Source: Chitinophagaceae bacterium
GTDB taxonomy: Bacteria; Bacteroidota; Bacteroidia; Chitinophagales; Chitinophagaceae
Reading direction: 5' to 3'
NCBI GenBank assembly: GCA_019638615.1
Contig: JAHBTL010000013.1
Coordinates: 62,001-126,000, forward strand
DNA: 64,000 bases
The notes under the pieces were generated by a model, which had not been told where the DNA came from, searched no databases, and saw nothing but the letters and a program-made list of their open reading frames with translations. Position numbers and translations under genes: made by a program. This document shows positions 270 through 8,815 of the stretch, in pieces (position 1 is the stretch's first letter; each line of letters opens with the position of its first letter).

Positions 270-842
270 ATGCAAATCATCAGGTCTATCCAAAACAGGA
301 TTTACGAAATAAGGGACGAGCGTGTAATGCTTGATTATGACCTTGCCGGATTATACGAAGTAGAAACAAAAGTTTTTAACCAGGCCATAAAGCGCAATAT
401 AAAACGTTTTCCGACTGATTTTATGTTTCAGCTTACCCGTACTGAATGGAATGGGTTGAAGATCCTGGCAATACCACAATCTGTTGAAATACAAAGCATT
501 GCAAAGGACTGGTCACAAATTGTGACCGGTTCACAAAAACACCGTTCAAAAATCGCTTTGCCCTACGCCTTCACCGAACAAGGCGTTGCCATGCTCAGCG
601 GTATACTCAACAGCGACAGGGCGATTAAAATGAACATAGCGATTATGCGGGCTTTTGTAGAGGTAAGAAGAGTGCTCCTGCAACAAACAGATATTAAAGA
701 ACAGCTCCGGCTGATCCGCGACAGGATTACTGAGCATGATGTACAGCTCAGCCAGATATATGACAGCATAGAAAACCTGCTGGATGAAAAAGCGGCGCAG
801 CGTAAATGGGATGACAGGGAAAGGATCGGGTTTAAAAAGTAG
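270..842 (+). CDS. ORF6N-domain protein
   Basis: A 190-residue protein whose N-terminal ~115 residues match the ORF6N domain, a putative DNA-binding domain first noted in phage antirepressor-like proteins. Visible signatures are an early IRDERVMLDYDLAGLYEV segment (about 15-32), RNIKRFPTDFMFQL (about 42-55) and the conserved LPYAFTEQGVAMLS (about 97-110). The C-terminal ~60 residues are charged and helical, probably a coiled coil. Such genes occur as chromosomal singletons in Bacteroidota and in prophages; their role is not established. No other phage gene is nearby, so this looks like a solitary copy. The ATG at 270 is the only reasonable start. It converges on the aldehyde dehydrogenase gene across a short gap holding a strong hairpin. 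Confidence 0.85.
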   Translation: MQIIRSIQNRIYEIRDERVMLDYDLAGLYEVETKVFNQAIKRNIKRFPTDFMFQLTRTEWNGLKILAIPQSVEIQSIAKDWSQIVTGSQKHRSKIALPYAFTEQGVAMLSGILNSDRAIKMNIAIMRAFVEVRRVLLQQTDIKEQLRLIRDRITEHDVQLSQIYDSIENLLDEKAAQRKWDDRERIGFKK

Positions 843-902: not shown

Positions 903-2267
903 CTACCCTCTTAAATGATACGCTTTCGGTTGCACAAACGCCCTTATACCATGATAAGACAATGTTGCGCCCAGTCCGGAATTTTTTCTGCCCGACCAGG
1001 GAAGCGCTGCGCTCACCCTGTCGCAGCAGTTCCAGTATACGGTGCCGGTATCCATCTGCTTCATTACTTTTTCGGCGCGATCCAAACTTTTGGAATACAC
1101 GGCTGCTGTTAACCCGTATGGTGTATCCTTCATTAATTCAACAGCTTCGTTATCATCTTTTACTTTTTGTATACCTATTACCGGGCCAAATGATTCTTCC
1201 GTCATCAGCTTCATGCCATGATTCGCGTCTACCACTACGGTAGGTTCAAAAAAATAGCCTTTACCCGGTAACGAACTGCCGCCTGAAAGGATCTTTCCGC
1301 CTTTGGTCCTTGCATCTTCTACCTGCTCTTTTAAAAAAGGAAGCTGCTCTTTACGGCTTACGGGGCCTATGCTTGTTTCCCTGTTAAGCGGGTTACCTGT
1401 AACTAATTTTTTTGCTTCTGTTACAAAAGTATCAACGAATGTATCATATATTTTTTCCTGTACGTATATACGCTCCACCGCGCAGCAACTCTGCCCTGTA
1501 TTATACACCGCACCTTCAAGGGCAGCTTCAGCAACAGCTTTTACATCTTCTACATCATCCATCACATACAAGGGATCTTTACCTCCCAGCTCTAACTGAA
1601 CAGGTACAAGTTTGCCTGCTGTTTGTTCTGCAATATATTTCCCGGTGCGGTAGCTGCCGGTAAAGTAATAGCCATCTAATGGCAAATCAAGCAATACCTG
1701 CCCTACTGCGCCTTTTCCGATCACAATAGCAAAAGCACTTTCGGGAATGCCGGCAAGAAACAATAACCGCTGTATATGTAAACCTGTTAATGTTGAGTAT
1801 TCAGAAGGTTTATATAACACGGCGTTACCGCCGATCAGCGCCGGAATAAACACATTAACTCCAACAAGGTAAGGATAGTTCCATGCGGAAATATTAGCAA
1901 TAACACCCAGCGGCTCATATACTATTTTCTCACGTGTAGCATCTTCCTCGGTTATCCATTCATCGGCCAGCCATTTGGCGGAATTTTTTATAAAATATTC
2001 AATGCGCTTTCTTGCCCCGTTCAATTCATTATAAGATTGCTGGATGGGTTTGCCTACTTCTTTTGTCAGCGTTTCAGCCAGCTCATCTTTGCGCTCATCA
2101 AGCAGTGTATAAAATTTTTCAATGGCGCTGATGCGTTGTGCCAGAGGCACTGTTGCCCACTGTTGCTGCCCTTCTTTTAAAAGCCGGTACTTTTCCTGTA
2201 TGGTTTCAAGAGTGTCTTCTGCCACTTCCTGTATTAGTTCTTCTGTTGCCGGGTTTATGATCTGCAT
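903..2267 (-). CDS. NAD(P)-dependent aldehyde dehydrogenase (predicted gamma-glutamyl-aminoacetaldehyde step)
   Basis: ALDH-superfamily enzyme of 454 residues oxidising an aldehyde to a carboxylate with NAD(P). Visible motifs: the cofactor-fold SAWNYP (about 127-132), KPSE (153-156), the general base Glu in LELGGK (about 225-230), and the nucleophile in GQSCC (Cys261 by the family GQxC spacing). The length is slightly short for the family (about 480), with a trimmed N-terminus, as in succinate-semialdehyde-type members. It is the last gene of the minus-strand cluster that starts with the permease at 7052. A 124-bp repeat-bearing gap separates it from the amidotransferase-type gene. In that context it would oxidise gamma-glutamyl-aminoacetaldehyde to gamma-glutamylglycine. 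The substrate is inferred; the family is certain. Confidence 0.9.
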   Translation of the reverse strand: MQIINPATEELIQEVAEDTLETIQEKYRLLKEGQQQWATVPLAQRISAIEKFYTLLDERKDELAETLTKEVGKPIQQSYNELNGARKRIEYFIKNSAKWLADEWITEEDATREKIVYEPLGVIANISAWNYPYLVGVNVFIPALIGGNAVLYKPSEYSTLTGLHIQRLLFLAGIPESAFAIVIGKGAVGQVLLDLPLDGYYFTGSYRTGKYIAEQTAGKLVPVQLELGGKDPLYVMDDVEDVKAVAEAALEGAVYNTGQSCCAVERIYVQEKIYDTFVDTFVTEAKKLVTGNPLNRETSIGPVSRKEQLPFLKEQVEDARTKGGKILSGGSSLPGKGYFFEPTVVVDANHGMKLMTEESFGPVIGIQKVKDDNEAVELMKDTPYGLTAAVYSKSLDRAEKVMKQMDTGTVYWNCCDRVSAALPWSGRKNSGLGATLSYHGIRAFVQPKAYHLRG

Positions 2268-2275
2268 GTGAATAG

Positions 2276-2391
2276 TTTTAAGTGGTAAGGGATAAGTTGT
2301 AAGAGTGGTTACAGGTTACAAGTTTCAGGTTGCGAGTTTGCTGATCCGCAACAGGCGTTGAGTTTGAATACCTGTAACCGGAAACATGTAA
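2276..2391. repeat. Word-type intergenic repeat with inverted arms
   Basis: The gap between two co-directional genes contains GGTTACAGGT (2307-2316) and its exact reverse complement ACCTGTAACC (2370-2379). The spacer is made of similar words, such as GGTTACAAGTTTCAGGTTGCGAG. It abuts the 3' end of the amidotransferase-type gene. The same vocabulary recurs at 44720-44744. Confidence 0.6.
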
Positions 2392-3090
2392 CTATCCCAC
2401 CACAGCTTCTACAAAAGCTTCCCTTATATTTTTTACAAAGTTACTCTCCTGATCATTCATTCGCTCAGGGTGCCACTGTACAAGGCATAAAAAAGATTTT
2501 CCTTCCGGGTCTTTTCTTTCAAGCGCTTCTACAACGCCATCGGGTGAAAAGGCTGAAACAATCAAGCCTTTGCCAATTATATCAGCGCTTTGATGATGAT
2601 TGCTGTTTACTGTTCCTTCCTGCCTGTGAATAATAGTATACAACCAGGAAGACGGATCAACCATTGTCTTATGATATCGATCTGAGTCATCAGGCAGTTT
2701 TGAGTGATTGAATTTCCCCCAGGTTGGTATATCGGGTATTAGTGTGCCGCCGAAAAAGACATTTGCTATCTGCAATCCGCGGCAAATGCCCAATACCGGT
2801 ATATTGTTCGCTTCGGTATACTTTAATATCTCCAGTTCAAACTCATCCCGTGCTTCATTTACGTCCGTCTCGTAGCAGTATTTATATAGTTCGGGTTTGT
2901 TATAAAATCGCGGATGCACATCTTCACCGCCTGTAAGTACAATCCCCCGGCACTTTTTTATTTCTTCAAAATTTTTTGCCCAGTGGCTTAACTGTATCAC
3001 TTCAACCGCCTCACTATATCCCAGGATCCAGTTGCTGTATTTTAAATATTTGCTGCAGTCGGTAACGCCGATTACAATCTTTTGCGGCAT
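2392..3090 (-). CDS. Class I glutamine amidotransferase-like hydrolase (peptidase C26, PuuD-like gamma-glutamyl amidase)
   Basis: A 232-residue peptidase C26 protein of the gamma-glutamyl-GABA hydrolase type. The nucleophile elbow is GICRGLQ (Cys103). The His-Glu of the triad is in VQWHPE (His207, Glu209), and TGGEDVHP (53-60) matches the family oxyanion/substrate loop. In the Puu putrescine pathway such enzymes cleave a gamma-glutamyl amide to glutamate plus the free acid. Here it probably releases glycine and glutamate from gamma-glutamylglycine (inferred from neighbours). Its start codon directly follows the stop of the upstream alcohol dehydrogenase with no spacer, so the two are almost certainly co-transcribed and translationally coupled. 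Confidence 0.85.
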   Translation of the reverse strand: MPQKIVIGVTDCSKYLKYSNWILGYSEAVEVIQLSHWAKNFEEIKKCRGIVLTGGEDVHPRFYNKPELYKYCYETDVNEARDEFELEILKYTEANNIPVLGICRGLQIANVFFGGTLIPDIPTWGKFNHSKLPDDSDRYHKTMVDPSSWLYTIIHRQEGTVNSNHHQSADIIGKGLIVSAFSPDGVVEALERKDPEGKSFLCLVQWHPERMNDQESNFVKNIREAFVEAVVG

Positions 3091-4239
3091 CTATAACGCT
3101 TTTAAATAAAGTTGTTTAAAATCTTCTCTCGATACCGGCTTGGGATTATTGGGATGTGCAAAATCCGCGAATGCCAGGTCGGCTAGTGTTTCAATATGTT
3201 CCATCTTCACGCCGATATCACGCAAATGGTGGGGTATATTTATTTTGGTATTAAGGTCAAACAAATATTTCACCACTGCTTCGCCGTCTTCCTTTTCCAG
3301 TTCCAATGTTCTGGCAATTGTTTTGAATTTATCTTCAAAACCCGCAATATTAAACTCCATGCCGTAAGGAATATTAACAGCGTTTGCCAGGCCGTGATGC
3401 GTATCGAGCAGTGATGAAAGCGGATGTGCCAAAGAATGCACAACACCTAATCCTTTCTGAAAAGCAATGGCACCCATCATTGAGCCCAGCAGCATTTTGC
3501 TTCTTGATTCAAGATCGGGCCTGTTGGTTGCTGTTTCGAGCGACTCATGTATCAGTTTCATTCCCTGCAAAGCAATGCCATCGCAGATGGGATGATAATT
3601 TTTTGCAAGATATGCTTCCATATTATGCGTGAGCGCATCCATACCCGTAGCCGCGGTGATGGGTGCAGGAATGTTCATGGTAAGCACAGGGTCAGCAAAA
3701 ACAATTTTTGCGAGCAGCTTTGGCGAGAACAATATTTTTTTCTGGTGTGTTTCATCATCGGCAATTATAGCACTGCGGCCTACTTCGCTGCCCGTGCCGG
3801 AAGTGGTGGGTATAGTGATGAAATGCGGCACATCATTGGTTACGTATATATCGCCGCCAATAAGATCGTCATACTTGAATAGATCTTCGCGGTGATTGAT
3901 GCGCAGGAGTATTGCACGGGCAACATCCAACCCGGCTCCGCCACCAATGCCAACTATACTATCACGACCTGTAGCATCCCAAACATCTACCCCCTTGTAT
4001 ACATCTGATTTTACCGGGTTCTTATGAATATCCGAAAATACTTCGGCTGATATATTGTTGTTTGCAAGATCAGTGAGTATGTCTTTAAAGAAGGGCAATT
4101 GTGCCACCACAGGATCAGTAACGATCAACGGTGCTTTTAAATTATTTGCTTTTAAGTACGCAGGTAATTCCTTTACAACATTAGCACCAAAACGTATTGT
4201 AGTAGGAAAATTAAACTGATGAATTTTTTCGAATGACAT
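3091..4239 (-). CDS. Iron-containing alcohol dehydrogenase
   Basis: A 382-residue type III (Fe-ADH) NAD(P)-dependent dehydrogenase. The N-terminal Rossmann-like part has the glycine-rich GIGGGAGLDVA, where most members read GGGSxxD, followed by TTSGTGSEV. The all-helical metal-binding half shows GMDALTHNMEAY and GVVHSLAHPLSS...HHGLANAV, which supply the Asp/His metal ligands. It is placed between a gamma-glutamyl ligase and a gamma-glutamyl hydrolase. An alcohol dehydrogenase there, instead of the flavin amine oxidase of the putrescine pathway, indicates that the gamma-glutamylated substrate carries a free hydroxyl, as gamma-glutamyl-ethanolamide does. That substrate is inferred. Confidence 0.9.
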   Translation of the reverse strand: MSFEKIHQFNFPTTIRFGANVVKELPAYLKANNLKAPLIVTDPVVAQLPFFKDILTDLANNNISAEVFSDIHKNPVKSDVYKGVDVWDATGRDSIVGIGGGAGLDVARAILLRINHREDLFKYDDLIGGDIYVTNDVPHFITIPTTSGTGSEVGRSAIIADDETHQKKILFSPKLLAKIVFADPVLTMNIPAPITAATGMDALTHNMEAYLAKNYHPICDGIALQGMKLIHESLETATNRPDLESRSKMLLGSMMGAIAFQKGLGVVHSLAHPLSSLLDTHHGLANAVNIPYGMEFNIAGFEDKFKTIARTLELEKEDGEAVVKYLFDLNTKINIPHHLRDIGVKMEHIETLADLAFADFAHPNNPKPVSREDFKQLYLKAL

Positions 4240-4358
4240 AATGAATTTGAAATTTCTGATTTGAGATTTTGAATGAGCTATCAGCCATCAGCTTTCAGTT
4301 ATCACGTTATTAACCTGCAACCACCGCTGATACCTGATGGCTGATAGCTGACCGCCCT
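4240..4358. repeat. Intergenic inverted repeat at the 3' end of the ligase gene
   Basis: AGCTATCAGCCATCAG (4276-4291) and its exact reverse complement CTGATGGCTGATAGCT (4334-4349) form a 16-bp stem around a 42-nt loop. It lies just downstream of the stop of the glutamine-synthetase-like gene. The flank also carries ATTTCTGATTTGAGATTT (4252-4269), an 18-mer that recurs exactly at 53873-53890 between unrelated genes. It may stabilise or end the upstream part of the message. Confidence 0.65.
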
Positions 4359-5726
4359 CTAAATAATTTCCAGATACCTCCTCAGCTCCCAATCCGTCAC
4401 CACTTTTGAGAACTGCCGCCATTCCCACTCTCTTGTAGCTGCAAAATGCGCCACAAAAGTCTCGCCAAACAATTCTTTAGCCAGGTCGGAGTTTTTCATT
4501 GCCTGCGTTGCCTGCCACAAATTAGCAGGAAGCACCCCGTTTGTTTTATTTGCATAACCATTGCCGATAGTTGCAGGCGCATGTAATTTCAATTTCTTTC
4601 GCACGCCATATAACCCCGAAGCGAGACAAGCCGCAATGGCCAGGTATGGATTGGAATCAGAGCCCACTACCCGTGTTTCAAGCCTGGCAGATTTTTCACC
4701 GCCCGGCAATGCACGCAAAGCGGTTGTTCTGTTATCTACCGCCCAGGTAAGTGTTGTTGGAGCCCATGCACCTTCTACCAGTCTTTTATAACTATTAACC
4801 GTAGGCGCAAACATGGGTAAAATATATGGCAGGCAATACAACTGCCCCGCTATATAGCTTTCCATTAACGCACTGATATGATTGCTTTTCTTTTTATCGT
4901 AAAACAGGTTTTGTTTCAGGTCGGCAGACCATAGGCTCTGGTGCACATGCCCGCTGCAGCCCGGCAGGCTCTCATTGAACTTTGCCATAAAGGTGGGCAA
5001 TACGCCGTGGCGATACCCTATTTCTTTTACACTGCTTTTAAACAATACAGCCCTGTCTGCGGCCTCCAGAGAATCGGAATAGGTAATAGCAGCTTCATAT
5101 ACTCCCGGGCCGGTTTCCGTATGTATGCCCTCTAATGGTATTTCAAATTTTTTGAGCAGATCAAACAGATCATTAAAAAAAGCATTGCGCTGAGAAGCTC
5201 TTAATACTGAATACCCAAACATGCCGTTGGTCATCGGCTTCAGGTCACGGAATTTCCCTGCATATAATTCATCAGAATTATCAACCAGGTTAAACCATTC
5301 AAATTCCTGTGAGCAATAAGCATGATAGCCTGCTTTCTTTACCTGTGCATTAACCTTTTTCAATAAATTCCTGGGGCATATTTCAGAAGCTGCTCCTTCC
5401 GTATCGAAGTCGGCAAGGAAGAAAGCAATATCGTTATCCCAGGGAATATGCCGGTAAGTTTTCACATCAACCACTGCCGTAGCATCCGGGTAACCTGTAT
5501 GCCAGCCGGTGATTGCGGCATTATCGTATGCCACATCCCCGGCATCCCAGCCAAATACCACATCGCAAAAACCAAAGCCGCTTTCAGCTATGGATCTGAA
5601 CTTTTCAAAGCTGATGACCTTACCACGCAATACCCCGTCAATATCTGTTACTGCTAATTTTACTTTTTGAGTTTTCTTATCAGCAAGCTGTTTCAGCAAT
5701 GCTGATGTTGATGTAACTGAAGGCAT
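4359..5726 (-). CDS. Glutamine synthetase-family gamma-glutamyl-amine ligase (PuuA/GlnA4-like)
   Basis: A 455-residue glutamine synthetase-fold enzyme that is not a housekeeping GlnA. It has the family pocket GCSGHVHQSLW in place of the usual NGSGMH-type loop, the nucleotide/arginine region EGAWAPTT...DNRTTALRA, and ETGPGVYE for metal and glutamate binding. The GlnA adenylylation tyrosine motif is absent. Members of this branch ligate glutamate to amines with ATP: PuuA uses putrescine, and Streptomyces GlnA4 was described as a gamma-glutamyl-ethanolamide synthetase. It follows an ethanolamine-type permease by 3 bp and precedes an alcohol dehydrogenase, so ethanolamine is the best-supported substrate (inferred). 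A short-chain amino alcohol or another primary amine remains possible. Confidence 0.85.
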   Translation of the reverse strand: MPSVTSTSALLKQLADKKTQKVKLAVTDIDGVLRGKVISFEKFRSIAESGFGFCDVVFGWDAGDVAYDNAAITGWHTGYPDATAVVDVKTYRHIPWDNDIAFFLADFDTEGAASEICPRNLLKKVNAQVKKAGYHAYCSQEFEWFNLVDNSDELYAGKFRDLKPMTNGMFGYSVLRASQRNAFFNDLFDLLKKFEIPLEGIHTETGPGVYEAAITYSDSLEAADRAVLFKSSVKEIGYRHGVLPTFMAKFNESLPGCSGHVHQSLWSADLKQNLFYDKKKSNHISALMESYIAGQLYCLPYILPMFAPTVNSYKRLVEGAWAPTTLTWAVDNRTTALRALPGGEKSARLETRVVGSDSNPYLAIAACLASGLYGVRKKLKLHAPATIGNGYANKTNGVLPANLWQATQAMKNSDLAKELFGETFVAHFAATREWEWRQFSKVVTDWELRRYLEII

Positions 5727-5729
5727 GTT

Positions 5730-7052
5730 TTATTTTTTTACAAAAAAGTGAAACCATATATAGCCCGCAAGCAGGATCGCAAAATACACAAAGGCTACGG
5801 TAAGATTTAAGGTGGTCATAGCGATCAGCGAAATTATAGCAATTATCAAAGCAATATAAGGGAAGTAAGGAAAAAAAGGCACTTTGAAAGGGCGTTCAAT
5901 ATCCGGCTCTTTTTTTCGCAACACCAGCACGGTGATCATGGAAAATATATACAGCGTAAGCGCGCCAAAGCAGGCAATGGTAATAATCTCAGATGTTTTT
6001 CCGGTAAGCAAGGCAATAATGCCTACCACCATATTTATAATCAAAGCATTGGCCGGTGTTTTGAATTTGTTATGCACTTTGCCAAAATTCCGGGGAATAT
6101 ATCCAACCCTGCCAAATTCAAAAGTTGCCCTCCCTGCAGCGAGTATAATACCATGAAAGGAGGCTACCAGCCCCATCAGCCCGATTGTTATCAGTAAATG
6201 ATACAGCCACCCGCTGTTACCGGTAATTTTTGCCAGGGCAAGGGGCAAAGGAGAATCTGACGGATCAGCTCCCGGTGATGGGTATACGATAGCTTCCCAG
6301 CCCGCTACGCCTACGGAAGACAGGAAAGTGAGTATGCATAGCACTATTAAGGTTAACAGCGCTGATCCGAAACCGATCAAAATGTTTCTTTGCGGATTTA
6401 TGGCTTCCTCTGCCACGTTTGCCACTCCTTCAATGGCAAGAAAAAACCATATAGCAAAAGGTATGGCAGCCCATGCACCTTTAAAGCCATTGGGGAAAGC
6501 ATTGGCTGTAACATTTCCCCACTCAAAATGTGGCAGGGTAGCGCCGGCGAAAATAAGCAGTTCCACAACAGCAAGAACAGTAATTACAAGTTCAAATGTG
6601 GCCGCCGCTTTTACACCATATATATTCAAGCCGGTAAAAATAATGTAGGCCACTATCGCAATTACCGTAACGGGAACCTGTGGAAAAAAGATATGAAAAT
6701 AAGCGCCAATGGCGGCAGCAATGGCAGGCGGGGCAAAAACAAATTCTATGATCTGTGCCATCCCCGCAATAAAGCCGGCTTCTTTTCCCAAAGCTCTTGT
6801 AGCATAATCAAATACGCCGCCTGCTTTCGGAATGGCGCAGGCCAGCTCGGTATAAGAAAAGGTGAAAGTAATATACAGGATGATGATAAGCAGTGTGGCT
6901 AATCCCAAACCGTAAGTTCCGCCTTCGGCCAAACCCAGGTTCCAGCCGAAATACATGCCTGATATTACATACCCAACACCAAGTCCCCATAACATTAGTG
7001 GTCCGAGCGTACGCGATAAGTGTGCATTAGTTTTTGGTTCTGTAGCCGACAT
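5730..7052 (-). CDS. APC-family amino acid/amine permease, ethanolamine permease type
   Basis: A 440-residue inner-membrane transporter with about 12 hydrophobic segments of the amino acid-polyamine-organocation family. The first helix carries GLGVGYVISGMYFGWNLG, and further on come AIPKAGGVFDYATRALG and FFLAIEGVANVAEEAINP. The last of these is characteristic of ethanolamine permeases of the EutP/Eat branch. It is first in a minus-strand cluster whose downstream enzymes form a gamma-glutamylation catabolic route, so it probably imports the amine that the next gene ligates to glutamate. It shares a 59-bp divergent promoter region with the lamin-tail protein gene. Confidence 0.85.
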   Translation of the reverse strand: MSATEPKTNAHLSRTLGPLMLWGLGVGYVISGMYFGWNLGLAEGGTYGLGLATLLIIILYITFTFSYTELACAIPKAGGVFDYATRALGKEAGFIAGMAQIIEFVFAPPAIAAAIGAYFHIFFPQVPVTVIAIVAYIIFTGLNIYGVKAAATFELVITVLAVVELLIFAGATLPHFEWGNVTANAFPNGFKGAWAAIPFAIWFFLAIEGVANVAEEAINPQRNILIGFGSALLTLIVLCILTFLSSVGVAGWEAIVYPSPGADPSDSPLPLALAKITGNSGWLYHLLITIGLMGLVASFHGIILAAGRATFEFGRVGYIPRNFGKVHNKFKTPANALIINMVVGIIALLTGKTSEIITIACFGALTLYIFSMITVLVLRKKEPDIERPFKVPFFPYFPYIALIIAIISLIAMTTLNLTVAFVYFAILLAGYIWFHFFVKK

Positions 7053-7111: not shown

Positions 7112-8815
7112 ATGAAAAACACCTATACACTATTGATGTGCCTGATTTGCACATTACAAACGTTTGCACAACAACAATATGATGTTGTTATCAATGAAAT
7201 AATGGCTAACCCCTCTTCAGCGCCGGAACTCCCTGAAGCGAAATACATTGAACTTTATAATGCTTCCGGTACAGCGCTTAACCTGCATAACTGGACAATC
7301 GGCGACAAAAACAGCACTGCCGGGATCAATGCCGATATCGTATTGCAGCCCGATAGCTTTATTGTAATAAGCTCTTCATCGGGAAAAGCTTTGCTATCAT
7401 CAATAACCACCGCTGTCAGCGTTACCGGTTTCCCTGCCCTGCATGTAAACGGAGATATTATTATTTTACGATCTTCCGGAGGAGAATTGATACATGCAGT
7501 AGCCTATGACAGGAGCTGGTATGGCAATGAAGTGAAAGCAGACAAAGGCTGGTCGCTGGAAATGATTGATGCAAAAAATCCATGCAACGGGCAAAGCAAC
7601 TGGAAAGCAAGCGCAGATAGTAAAGGCGGAACGCCGGGATCACGAAACTCGGTTGCAGGCAATAACCCTGATACAGGCAGCCCGTACATATGGCGTGTAT
7701 TCGCTACCGACAGCCTGCATGTTTTAGCAAGTTTTTCTGAGCCGGTAGACAGCCTGGCTTCATCTAACATCAATAATTACCAGTTAAATGAAAGCAACAT
7801 AACGAAAGCCGAACCGCAGGCGCCGCTGTTTAATACAGTGCTGCTCACATTATCCGGCAAATTATCCGCACAAAAAATATACAGCTTAATAGTAAAGAAC
7901 ATTATAGACTGCCAAGGAAACCTTACATCCCTTAATACAGCAAAACTGGCTTTAACTACACTTGCAGGTTCAAATAATATTGTAATAACCGAGGTGTTGT
8001 TTAATGCGCCGGATGACGGAGCCGAGTATATTGAGCTGTATAATCACAGTAGTGCTGCTATCAATCTGAAAGAACTTCTCATAACTACAAGAAACAGTTC
8101 CGGCAACCTGAATGCACTGAAAAGATTAAGCGAAGAAGACGTATTATTTTTTCCGGGGGAATACAAAGTGTTGAGCAGCGATATGGATGCAGTAAAGAAA
8201 AAGTATATTATAAAAGAAGAAACCGCATTGGTACCCGTTGCTTCCATGCCTGCATTACCCAACAGCAGCGGAACAATTGTTTTACTAAATGTACAGGGCG
8301 ATATTATTGATGAATTGCAGTATGATGAGAAATGGCACTTTCAACTGATCAGCAATAACAAAGGTGTTGCGCTGGAAAGAGTAAATGATAAAGCGCCTAC
8401 ACAGGATAAAAACAACTGGCATTCCGCCTCTGCCAGTTCGGGTTATGGCACACCGGGATCTCAGAATTCACAGTTAATGGCAGGTGAAATGGTAAAAGGT
8501 GAAATCAACATGGATCCTTCTGTCTTTTCACCAGACGGTGACGGGTATAATGATTTCCTTATTATCAATTATACATTTCCTTCGCCCGGCTATGTCTGCA
8601 ATATCACCGCGTTTGATGGTGCGGGCAGGGCGGTTAAATATATAGTGCGCAATGGGCTATGTGGCACAAGCGGCTTTTTTAAATGGGACGGGCTGGATGA
8701 AAAGAACCAAAAACTACAAATGGGAATATATGTGCTGTTGGTTGAGGTATATAATACGGAAGGAAAAACAAAAAAGTTTAAGCAGGCGGTTACATTGGCA
8801 AGAAGATTAAATTAG
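7112..8815 (+). CDS. Secreted protein with two lamin-tail domains and a T9SS-type C-terminal domain
   Basis: A 567-residue exported protein. A signal peptide spans about residues 1-19 (ends at FAQ). Two lamin-tail (LTD) domains follow, around 23-150 (VVINEIMANP, KYIELYNASG) and 290-450 (IVITEVLFNAP, EYIELYNHSS). Between them is a bacterial Ig-like domain (about 190-280, YIWRVFATDS...SFSEPVDS). The end, after FSPDGDGYNDF (about 470), is a beta-sandwich like the gliding-motility/type B or FlgD-like C-terminal domains that T9SS exports. LTD proteins of this architecture are common, poorly understood surface proteins, sometimes linked to nucleases; no nuclease motif is seen here. SprA, encoded 8 kb away, is the likely export channel. 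Confidence 0.8.
   Translation: MKNTYTLLMCLICTLQTFAQQQYDVVINEIMANPSSAPELPEAKYIELYNASGTALNLHNWTIGDKNSTAGINADIVLQPDSFIVISSSSGKALLSSITTAVSVTGFPALHVNGDIIILRSSGGELIHAVAYDRSWYGNEVKADKGWSLEMIDAKNPCNGQSNWKASADSKGGTPGSRNSVAGNNPDTGSPYIWRVFATDSLHVLASFSEPVDSLASSNINNYQLNESNITKAEPQAPLFNTVLLTLSGKLSAQKIYSLIVKNIIDCQGNLTSLNTAKLALTTLAGSNNIVITEVLFNAPDDGAEYIELYNHSSAAINLKELLITTRNSSGNLNALKRLSEEDVLFFPGEYKVLSSDMDAVKKKYIIKEETALVPVASMPALPNSSGTIVLLNVQGDIIDELQYDEKWHFQLISNNKGVALERVNDKAPTQDKNNWHSASASSGYGTPGSQNSQLMAGEMVKGEINMDPSVFSPDGDGYNDFLIINYTFPSPGYVCNITAFDGAGRAVKYIVRNGLCGTSGFFKWDGLDEKNQKLQMGIYVLLVEVYNTEGKTKKFKQAVTLARRLN

Follow-up and report, generated by a model that had tools for sequence, protein, structure and literature searches.

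A candidate operon for the import and gamma-glutamylation of ethanolamine in a Chitinophagaceae bacterium

Ethanolamine forms the head group of phosphatidylethanolamine and commonly serves as a source of nitrogen. Five genes on the minus strand, at positions 903-7052 of a 64,000-nucleotide stretch of Chitinophagaceae DNA (contig JAHBTL010000013.1, positions 62,001 to 126,000; the whole stretch analysed is referred to here as the window), raise the question of whether a member of the Bacteroidota could use this amine without EutB, by first attaching it to glutamate. The preliminary description of the locus had proposed as much, with an alcohol dehydrogenase in place of the oxidase of the Puu pathway and no need for B12 or a microcompartment. 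All five genes are present in the order it gave, as intact open reading frames (ORFs) with a Pfam match for each, and comparative genomics supports the proposed function: the operon is considered likely, at a probability of roughly 0.82, to import ethanolamine and degrade it by gamma-glutamylation.

Gene cluster and proposed pathway

In transcription order, with intergenic gaps of 3, 119, 0 and 124 bases, the genes are:

5730..7052, minus strand: Eat-type ethanolamine permease (APC family), 440 aa; TIGR00908 460 bits, Pfam AA_permease_2
4359..5726, minus strand: glutamine synthetase (GS)-like gamma-glutamyl-amine ligase, 455 aa; proposed ethanolamine ligase, step 1; Gln-synt_C 7.8e-93, residues and tree position
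3091..4239, minus strand: iron-type alcohol dehydrogenase (Fe-ADH), 382 aa; proposed gamma-glutamylethanolamide dehydrogenase, step 2; Pfam Fe-ADH and ADH_Fe_C
2392..3090, minus strand: Peptidase C26 / class I glutamine amidotransferase (GATase)-like amidase, 232 aa; proposed gamma-glutamylglycine hydrolase, step 4; Peptidase_C26 1.2e-42
903..2267, minus strand: aldehyde dehydrogenase (ALDH), 454 aa; proposed gamma-glutamyl aldehyde dehydrogenase, step 3; Aldedh 5.9e-128

The permease score lies above the 381.75-bit cut-off of TIGR00908, 'ethanolamine permease', which marks it as a dedicated transporter, and among the matches listed it is the only one of the five proteins to pass an NCBIfam cut-off. 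The Pfam matches Fe-ADH, Aldedh and Peptidase_C26 place an alcohol dehydrogenase, an aldehyde dehydrogenase and an amidohydrolase in the same cluster.

From these families we infer the substrate, the order of the steps and the products. Eat would take ethanolamine into the cell, where the ligase, with ATP, would couple it to the gamma-carboxyl of glutamate; the Fe-ADH would oxidise the free hydroxyl of gamma-glutamylethanolamide to the aldehyde, the ALDH would convert this gamma-glutamyl aldehyde to gamma-glutamylglycine, and the C26 amidase would release glycine and return the glutamate. Given that the glutamate tag would avoid a free amino-aldehyde, neither B12 nor a microcompartment should be needed. 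The genome has gcvP and could use the glycine. It gives no EutB match in a search in which the E. coli control was positive, and apart from the ligase it has a single GS-domain match, which lies in a 731-aa frame.

Permease linkage and the substrate

The identity of the substrate was approached through the distribution of Eat and EutB in a sample of 395 Bacteroidota genomes, of which 19 have a strong Eat match (E<=1e-80) and 12 have EutB. Eight of the 19 carry a permease 44-48% identical to that of the window and all eight have EutB, with coordinates that place Eat within 750 bases of EutB in seven; in the eighth, G406, the two genes lie on separate contigs. The other 11, whose permeases are 58-100% identical to that of the window, all lack EutB and all have a GS-like amine ligase belonging to one of two clades. 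Eight of these have the five-gene cluster, two (G194 and G100) have the order ligase, short-chain dehydrogenase (SDR), ALDH, GATase and Eat, and G226 has a second-clade ligase on another contig, so Eat and a ligase share a cluster in 10 of the 11 EutB-less genomes. Both kinds of Eat pass TIGR00908 (the window, L031, L110 and L240 for the 11; L241 for the eight).

On the permease tree the 11 form one clade, within which the five-gene and SDR cluster types are intermixed. Given this mixing, one importer appears to have been retained while the ligase and dehydrogenase were exchanged around it; the permeases of L110 and L116, 70-71% identical to that of the window, lie inside a different gamma-glutamylation cluster. 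The Eat/EutB pattern points to ethanolamine as the substrate, because an Eat clade without EutB is linked to gamma-glutamyl-type ligases, and the name given to the ligase forms no part of this argument.

If so, a survey that looked only for EutB would overlook about half of the genomes in the sample that probably use ethanolamine, since 12 genomes have EutB and 11 others combine the Eat clade with a gamma-glutamyl-type ligase. With this assignment, many proteins whose annotation goes no further than glutamine synthetase would also gain a function that can be tested.

Conservation of the cluster

The ligase is present in all 11 other genomes of the genus that were searched, and all five genes in eight of them. 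Relatives were captured from GTDB, and the best 80 named loci of at least 574 relatives were compared. The same five-gene order, which the preliminary description had proposed to seek in other Bacteroidota, was found there: 50 of these 80 loci have all five genes, six lack only Eat and 24 are without part of the four-enzyme set. The NCBI names of the 50 include Chitinophagaceae (18) and Sphingobacteriaceae (11), in both of which the five-gene type is common, as well as Cytophagales and Saprospiraceae, together with single metagenome-assembled genomes (MAGs) named Bdellovibrionales and Proteobacteria. Carriers in culture include Pedobacter soli (L174), Chitinophaga niastensis (L173) and Limnovirga soli (L129).

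Across all fetched loci, named and unnamed, the four enzymes occur together in 75, at least two genomes being counted twice (L026/L125 and L072/L129), and Eat is present too in 66. The genes are co-linear on one strand in 74 of the 75, the exception being L187, with a split ALDH match; L155 is co-linear, with its genes spread over about 12 kb. The order thus recurs within the genus, elsewhere in the family and in further orders of the phylum, beyond what chance would give. In two loci the amidase and ALDH are fused in a single ORF (L127:11884-13965 and L135:11628-13748; 693 and 706 aa), which would tie these two enzymes to one pathway. L127 and L135 are MAGs with similar isolate names.

Catalytic residues

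Residues were aligned in 67 five-gene sets, namely the 66 loci with Eat and the window. The amidase triad (C103, H207, E209) and the Fe-ADH residues D201, H205, H268, H272, H281 and H282 are present in 67 of 67; in the ALDH, E226 is present in all sets and C261 in 66, with one gap. A strict cysteine-motif pattern, which matched the amidase in 60 of the 75 loci, was set aside as too narrow, given that the alignment has the cysteine, histidine and glutamate throughout. L183 has one stop inside its amidase match, which, like the split ALDH match of L187, may be decay or sequencing error.

In E. coli GlnA numbering, the ligase keeps E129, E131, E212, E220, H269, R321, R339, R344, E357 and R359, positions with roles in binding ATP, metal and glutamate. 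Relative to GlnA it has E327 replaced by W and Y179 by F, as do 74 of 74 other ligases labelled as five-gene type. E327 is the flap residue of ammonia-using GS, and because this position is a tryptophan the window ligase is unlikely to use ammonia. It also scores 213.7 bits against TIGR00653 (type I glutamine synthetase), below the cut-off of 429.15. The residue pattern suits an amine as the substrate better than ammonia.

Evidence weighing against the assignment

Several observations weigh against the assignment to ethanolamine. The contrast between Eat with and without EutB (Fisher's p 1.3e-5) is one split on the permease tree and consequently the p value does not derive from 19 independent events. 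Within the genus, three of the 11 genomes (G009, G010 and G011) have the enzymes and no Eat orthologue, the best match genome-wide being 25-30% identical; the ALDH of G011 is cut by the edge of the fetched stretch. The 24 named loci without the full four-enzyme set are, by our reading, of several kinds: seven end at contig edges; five (L149, L150, L153, L170 and L177) have Eat and the ligase without the ADH and amidase, L149 adding one weak ALDH match on the opposite strand; eight (L152, L158, L167, L168, L179, L185, L189 and L192) have a ligase and nothing close to the remaining four proteins; two (L138 and L140) have the ADH on the opposite strand; and two more belong to the kinase-HAD type described below. 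In L152, L158 and L167 a ligase of the five-gene clade lies between two shared genes, in L152 a weak ATP-grasp match and a GntP permease, which makes a third gene context.

The lineage of the ligase also has to be reckoned with. In a tree of 161 sequences, with GlnA4 represented by the SDR-linked ligases of T. roseum and Bacteroidota, 5dm3 (Csal_0679 of Chromohalobacter salexigens) and the Ruegeria ligase of L070 group with most of the SDR-linked ligases in a clade of 16 tips (support 1.0). The window ligase, 34-35% identical to the Ruegeria and SDR-linked ligases, falls outside it, in a separate clade of 140 tips (support 0.956), to which ligases from plasmids of Rhizobium, Burkholderia, Photobacterium, Legionella lytica and a Rhodobacteraceae strain also belong. 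The pocket of the window ligase differs from that of the 5dm3 clade: it has F where that clade has E/Q at 179, W where it has F at 327 and H where it has K at 210. Some context labels on the tree derive from weak distant matches ('rADH' for L152; 'SDR' for L121 and L122), and L121 and L122 are probably ordinary GS, given that they keep E327 and lie outside both ligase clades.

Furthermore, a sister group of Bacteroidota ligases, whose genes have other neighbours, shares F179, H210 and W327 in 36 of 36. A ligase at least 50% identical to that of the window occurs in 41 of the 395 genomes: eight have the five-gene cluster, and in 33 the ligase is next to a kinase-like protein of 347 aa, the same stretch also encoding a HAD-IIA phosphatase. 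This three-gene unit was seen in 36 loci (L032, L076, L078-L109, L195 and L196), and none of the 36 fetched ligases of this kind falls within the 99-tip five-gene clade, the group being sister to the window type; positions 50 and 53 vary in both groups. Since the sister group shares the pocket residues, the identity of the ligase is in itself no proof of ethanolamine, and it is the permease linkage that carries the argument. Nor is the sister cluster simply an alternative to Eut, given that six of the 12 EutB genomes carry it. For annotation this is a warning, as close sister ligases with the same pocket residues occur in an unrelated gene context.

The label 'kinase-like' comes from a motif read by eye. 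The protein has no Pfam match (two members searched) and no NCBIfam match (one member), a profile of 14 sequences matched nothing in PDB up to E 0.1, and an AlphaFold model from two sequences, with a mean predicted local distance difference test (pLDDT) of 40, was too poor for use.

Alternative substrates and roles

The same pathway might serve mainly another primary amino alcohol, such as alaninol, 3-aminopropanol or serinol, and end in the matching gamma-glutamyl amino acid. Such a substrate would sit well with a ligase whose pocket is unlike that of the 5dm3 clade and which is closer to IpuC (39.4%), the gamma-glutamylisopropylamide synthetase of Paenarthrobacter aurescens TC1 (pTC1) and likewise a GS-like amine ligase, than to the Ruegeria ligase (34.5%); in the ligase tree the support for the position of IpuC is only 0.466. 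This reading is nevertheless unlikely, given that the permease scores as an ethanolamine permease and that the same permease clade is found in ligase-SDR-ALDH-GATase clusters resembling those of Streptomyces. The gene context also speaks against it, as IpuC adjoins P450, ferredoxin and ferredoxin reductase genes and the window cluster has none of these.

It is also conceivable, if improbable, that the enzymes recycle or detoxify ethanolamine from the cell's own lipids instead of using ethanolamine taken up for growth. The three genomes of the genus that retain the four enzymes without Eat would suit such a role, which is also suggested for S. coelicolor, without a permease, in the sections of PMC6529630 drawn on here; in the window, however, Eat is the first gene, directly ahead of the ligase, and it is part of the cluster in most of the named loci compared. 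A Puu-type pathway for putrescine or other polyamines with a substituted oxidase, which has the ligase, amidase and ALDH families in common with the cluster, is very improbable. The ligase scores 191 bits against the PuuA model (cut-off 650), the amidase 57.6 against PuuD (cut-off 266) and the ALDH 234 against PuuC (cut-off 850), identities to PuuA, PuuD, PuuC and PuuP are 30%, 29%, 30% and 22%, and none of the five genes is an amine oxidase; alcohol dehydrogenases are not known to attack the amine end of a substrate.

Uptake and gamma-glutamylation of ethanolamine thus remains the preferred reading. With regard to its origin, it is tentatively suggested, at slightly less than even confidence, that the Bacteroidota ligase is an independently specialised ethanolamine gamma-glutamyl ligase beside kinase/HAD-coupled sisters, convergent with the GlnA4/5dm3 type, and that one Eat clade has been combined with either enzyme set. 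If this is true, ethanolamine gamma-glutamylation would be a modular pathway that was assembled more than once.

Relation to known systems

The chemistry itself is already known. Phaeobacter sp. MED193 has an operon for ethanolamine gamma-glutamylation (EtoVWX, ETAGA, GAADDH, GETADH and GGAH), and its EtoX binding protein, ethanolamine gamma-glutamylase, two dehydrogenases and gamma-glutamylglycine amidohydrolase rise on phosphorylethanolamine, according to the excerpts of PMC10132767, which also cite C. salexigens and A. tumefaciens C58 (Vetting et al.) as demonstrated cases. The plasmid locus L070 of Ruegeria sp. B32 has the gene order of the Phaeobacter operon, and its last enzyme is annotated as an iron-containing alcohol dehydrogenase; an Fe-ADH in place of PuuB within a full gene set is therefore not new. 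These operons share with the window a ligase, an alcohol dehydrogenase, an ALDH, an amidohydrolase and an ethanolamine transporter, but they have a TRAP transporter, an N-formylglutamate-type amidohydrolase and, in L070, an RpiR regulator where the window has Eat and a C26 amidase. Besides the ligase, which belongs to another clade, the ADH and ALDH are 37% and 35% identical between the window and Ruegeria. The Bacteroidota sample includes two genomes from a single genus (L111 and L112) whose ligase, ALDH and Fe-ADH are 75-81% identical to the Ruegeria operon, a likeness that suggests transfer.

For Streptomyces GlnA4, the available text of PMC6529630 reports the first step as shown and the remainder as predicted, to glycine and glutamate. 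That cluster has in common with the window a ligase, an ALDH, an amidotransferase, in some species a putative ethanolamine permease, and the same predicted chain; it differs in having a short-chain dehydrogenase where the window has an Fe-ADH (PMC6529630, same text). The Bacteroidota SDR-type clusters of G194 and G100 have a gene set of the kind described there.

Plasmid clusters of Legionella lytica (L065) and Photobacterium sp. DA100 (L067) have a ligase of the same larger clade as the window's (45% and 43% identity), an ALDH, an Fe-ADH and a GATase-like gene, which extends this association beyond the Bacteroidota; they differ in gene order, in having no Eat match in the fetched stretch, and in an ALDH and ADH nearer the Ruegeria type. 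In another plasmid, of Rhizobium leguminosarum, a 969-aa ORF (L064:6426-9335) joins a Cys/Met-type pyridoxal phosphate (PLP) enzyme domain to a GS domain, of which the gene table for L064 lists the GS end only.

The earlier claim that a full cluster with a dedicated transporter would be new for this phylum therefore stands only in part, since one is published for Phaeobacter (PMC10132767, as excerpted) and an Fe-ADH is present in L070. No published account for Bacteroidota or Pedobacter was found in the open-licence literature, in which the matches concern gut E. coli and Salmonella by title, and the phylum terms are absent from the excerpts of the pathway papers, PMC10132767 and PMC6529630 included. 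What sets the window cluster apart from the Phaeobacter operon is the Eat permease, the C26 amidase and the separate lineage of the ligase.

Dehydrogenase and amidase genes

The window ADH is 84-86% identical to those of three Pedobacter loci (L172, L174 and L193), in which the ligase is 62-63% identical. The amidase has an identity of 67-68% with three loci of Pedobacter, 63-65% with two of Chitinophaga, and 33-42% with the non-genus loci whose ligases are closest. For the ADH-amidase block a mosaic origin was considered, with an approximately unbiased (AU) test on 38 of 67 rows from which L133 was omitted because its ADH resembles the other group. Since a history in which the ADH follows the other genes is not rejected (p 0.314), the ADH pattern lacks statistical support and a mosaic origin is not claimed. 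For the amidase, both preset groupings were rejected (p below 1e-57 each); a grouping picked afterwards by identity was not rejected (p 0.347), but the free search did not recover it.

Flanking features

The window has no Rfam family at the gathering score, and no tRNA was found in it. By Pfam, the genes flanking the cluster are:

7112-8815, plus strand: lamin-tail protein with a type IX secretion system (T9SS) signal
270-842, plus strand: ORF6N protein

In the three genomes of the genus that have the enzymes and no Eat orthologue (L028, L029 and L030 for G009-G011), the ligase adjoins a gene that in L028 is of the lamin-tail/CHU_C kind, like the gene flanking Eat in the window.

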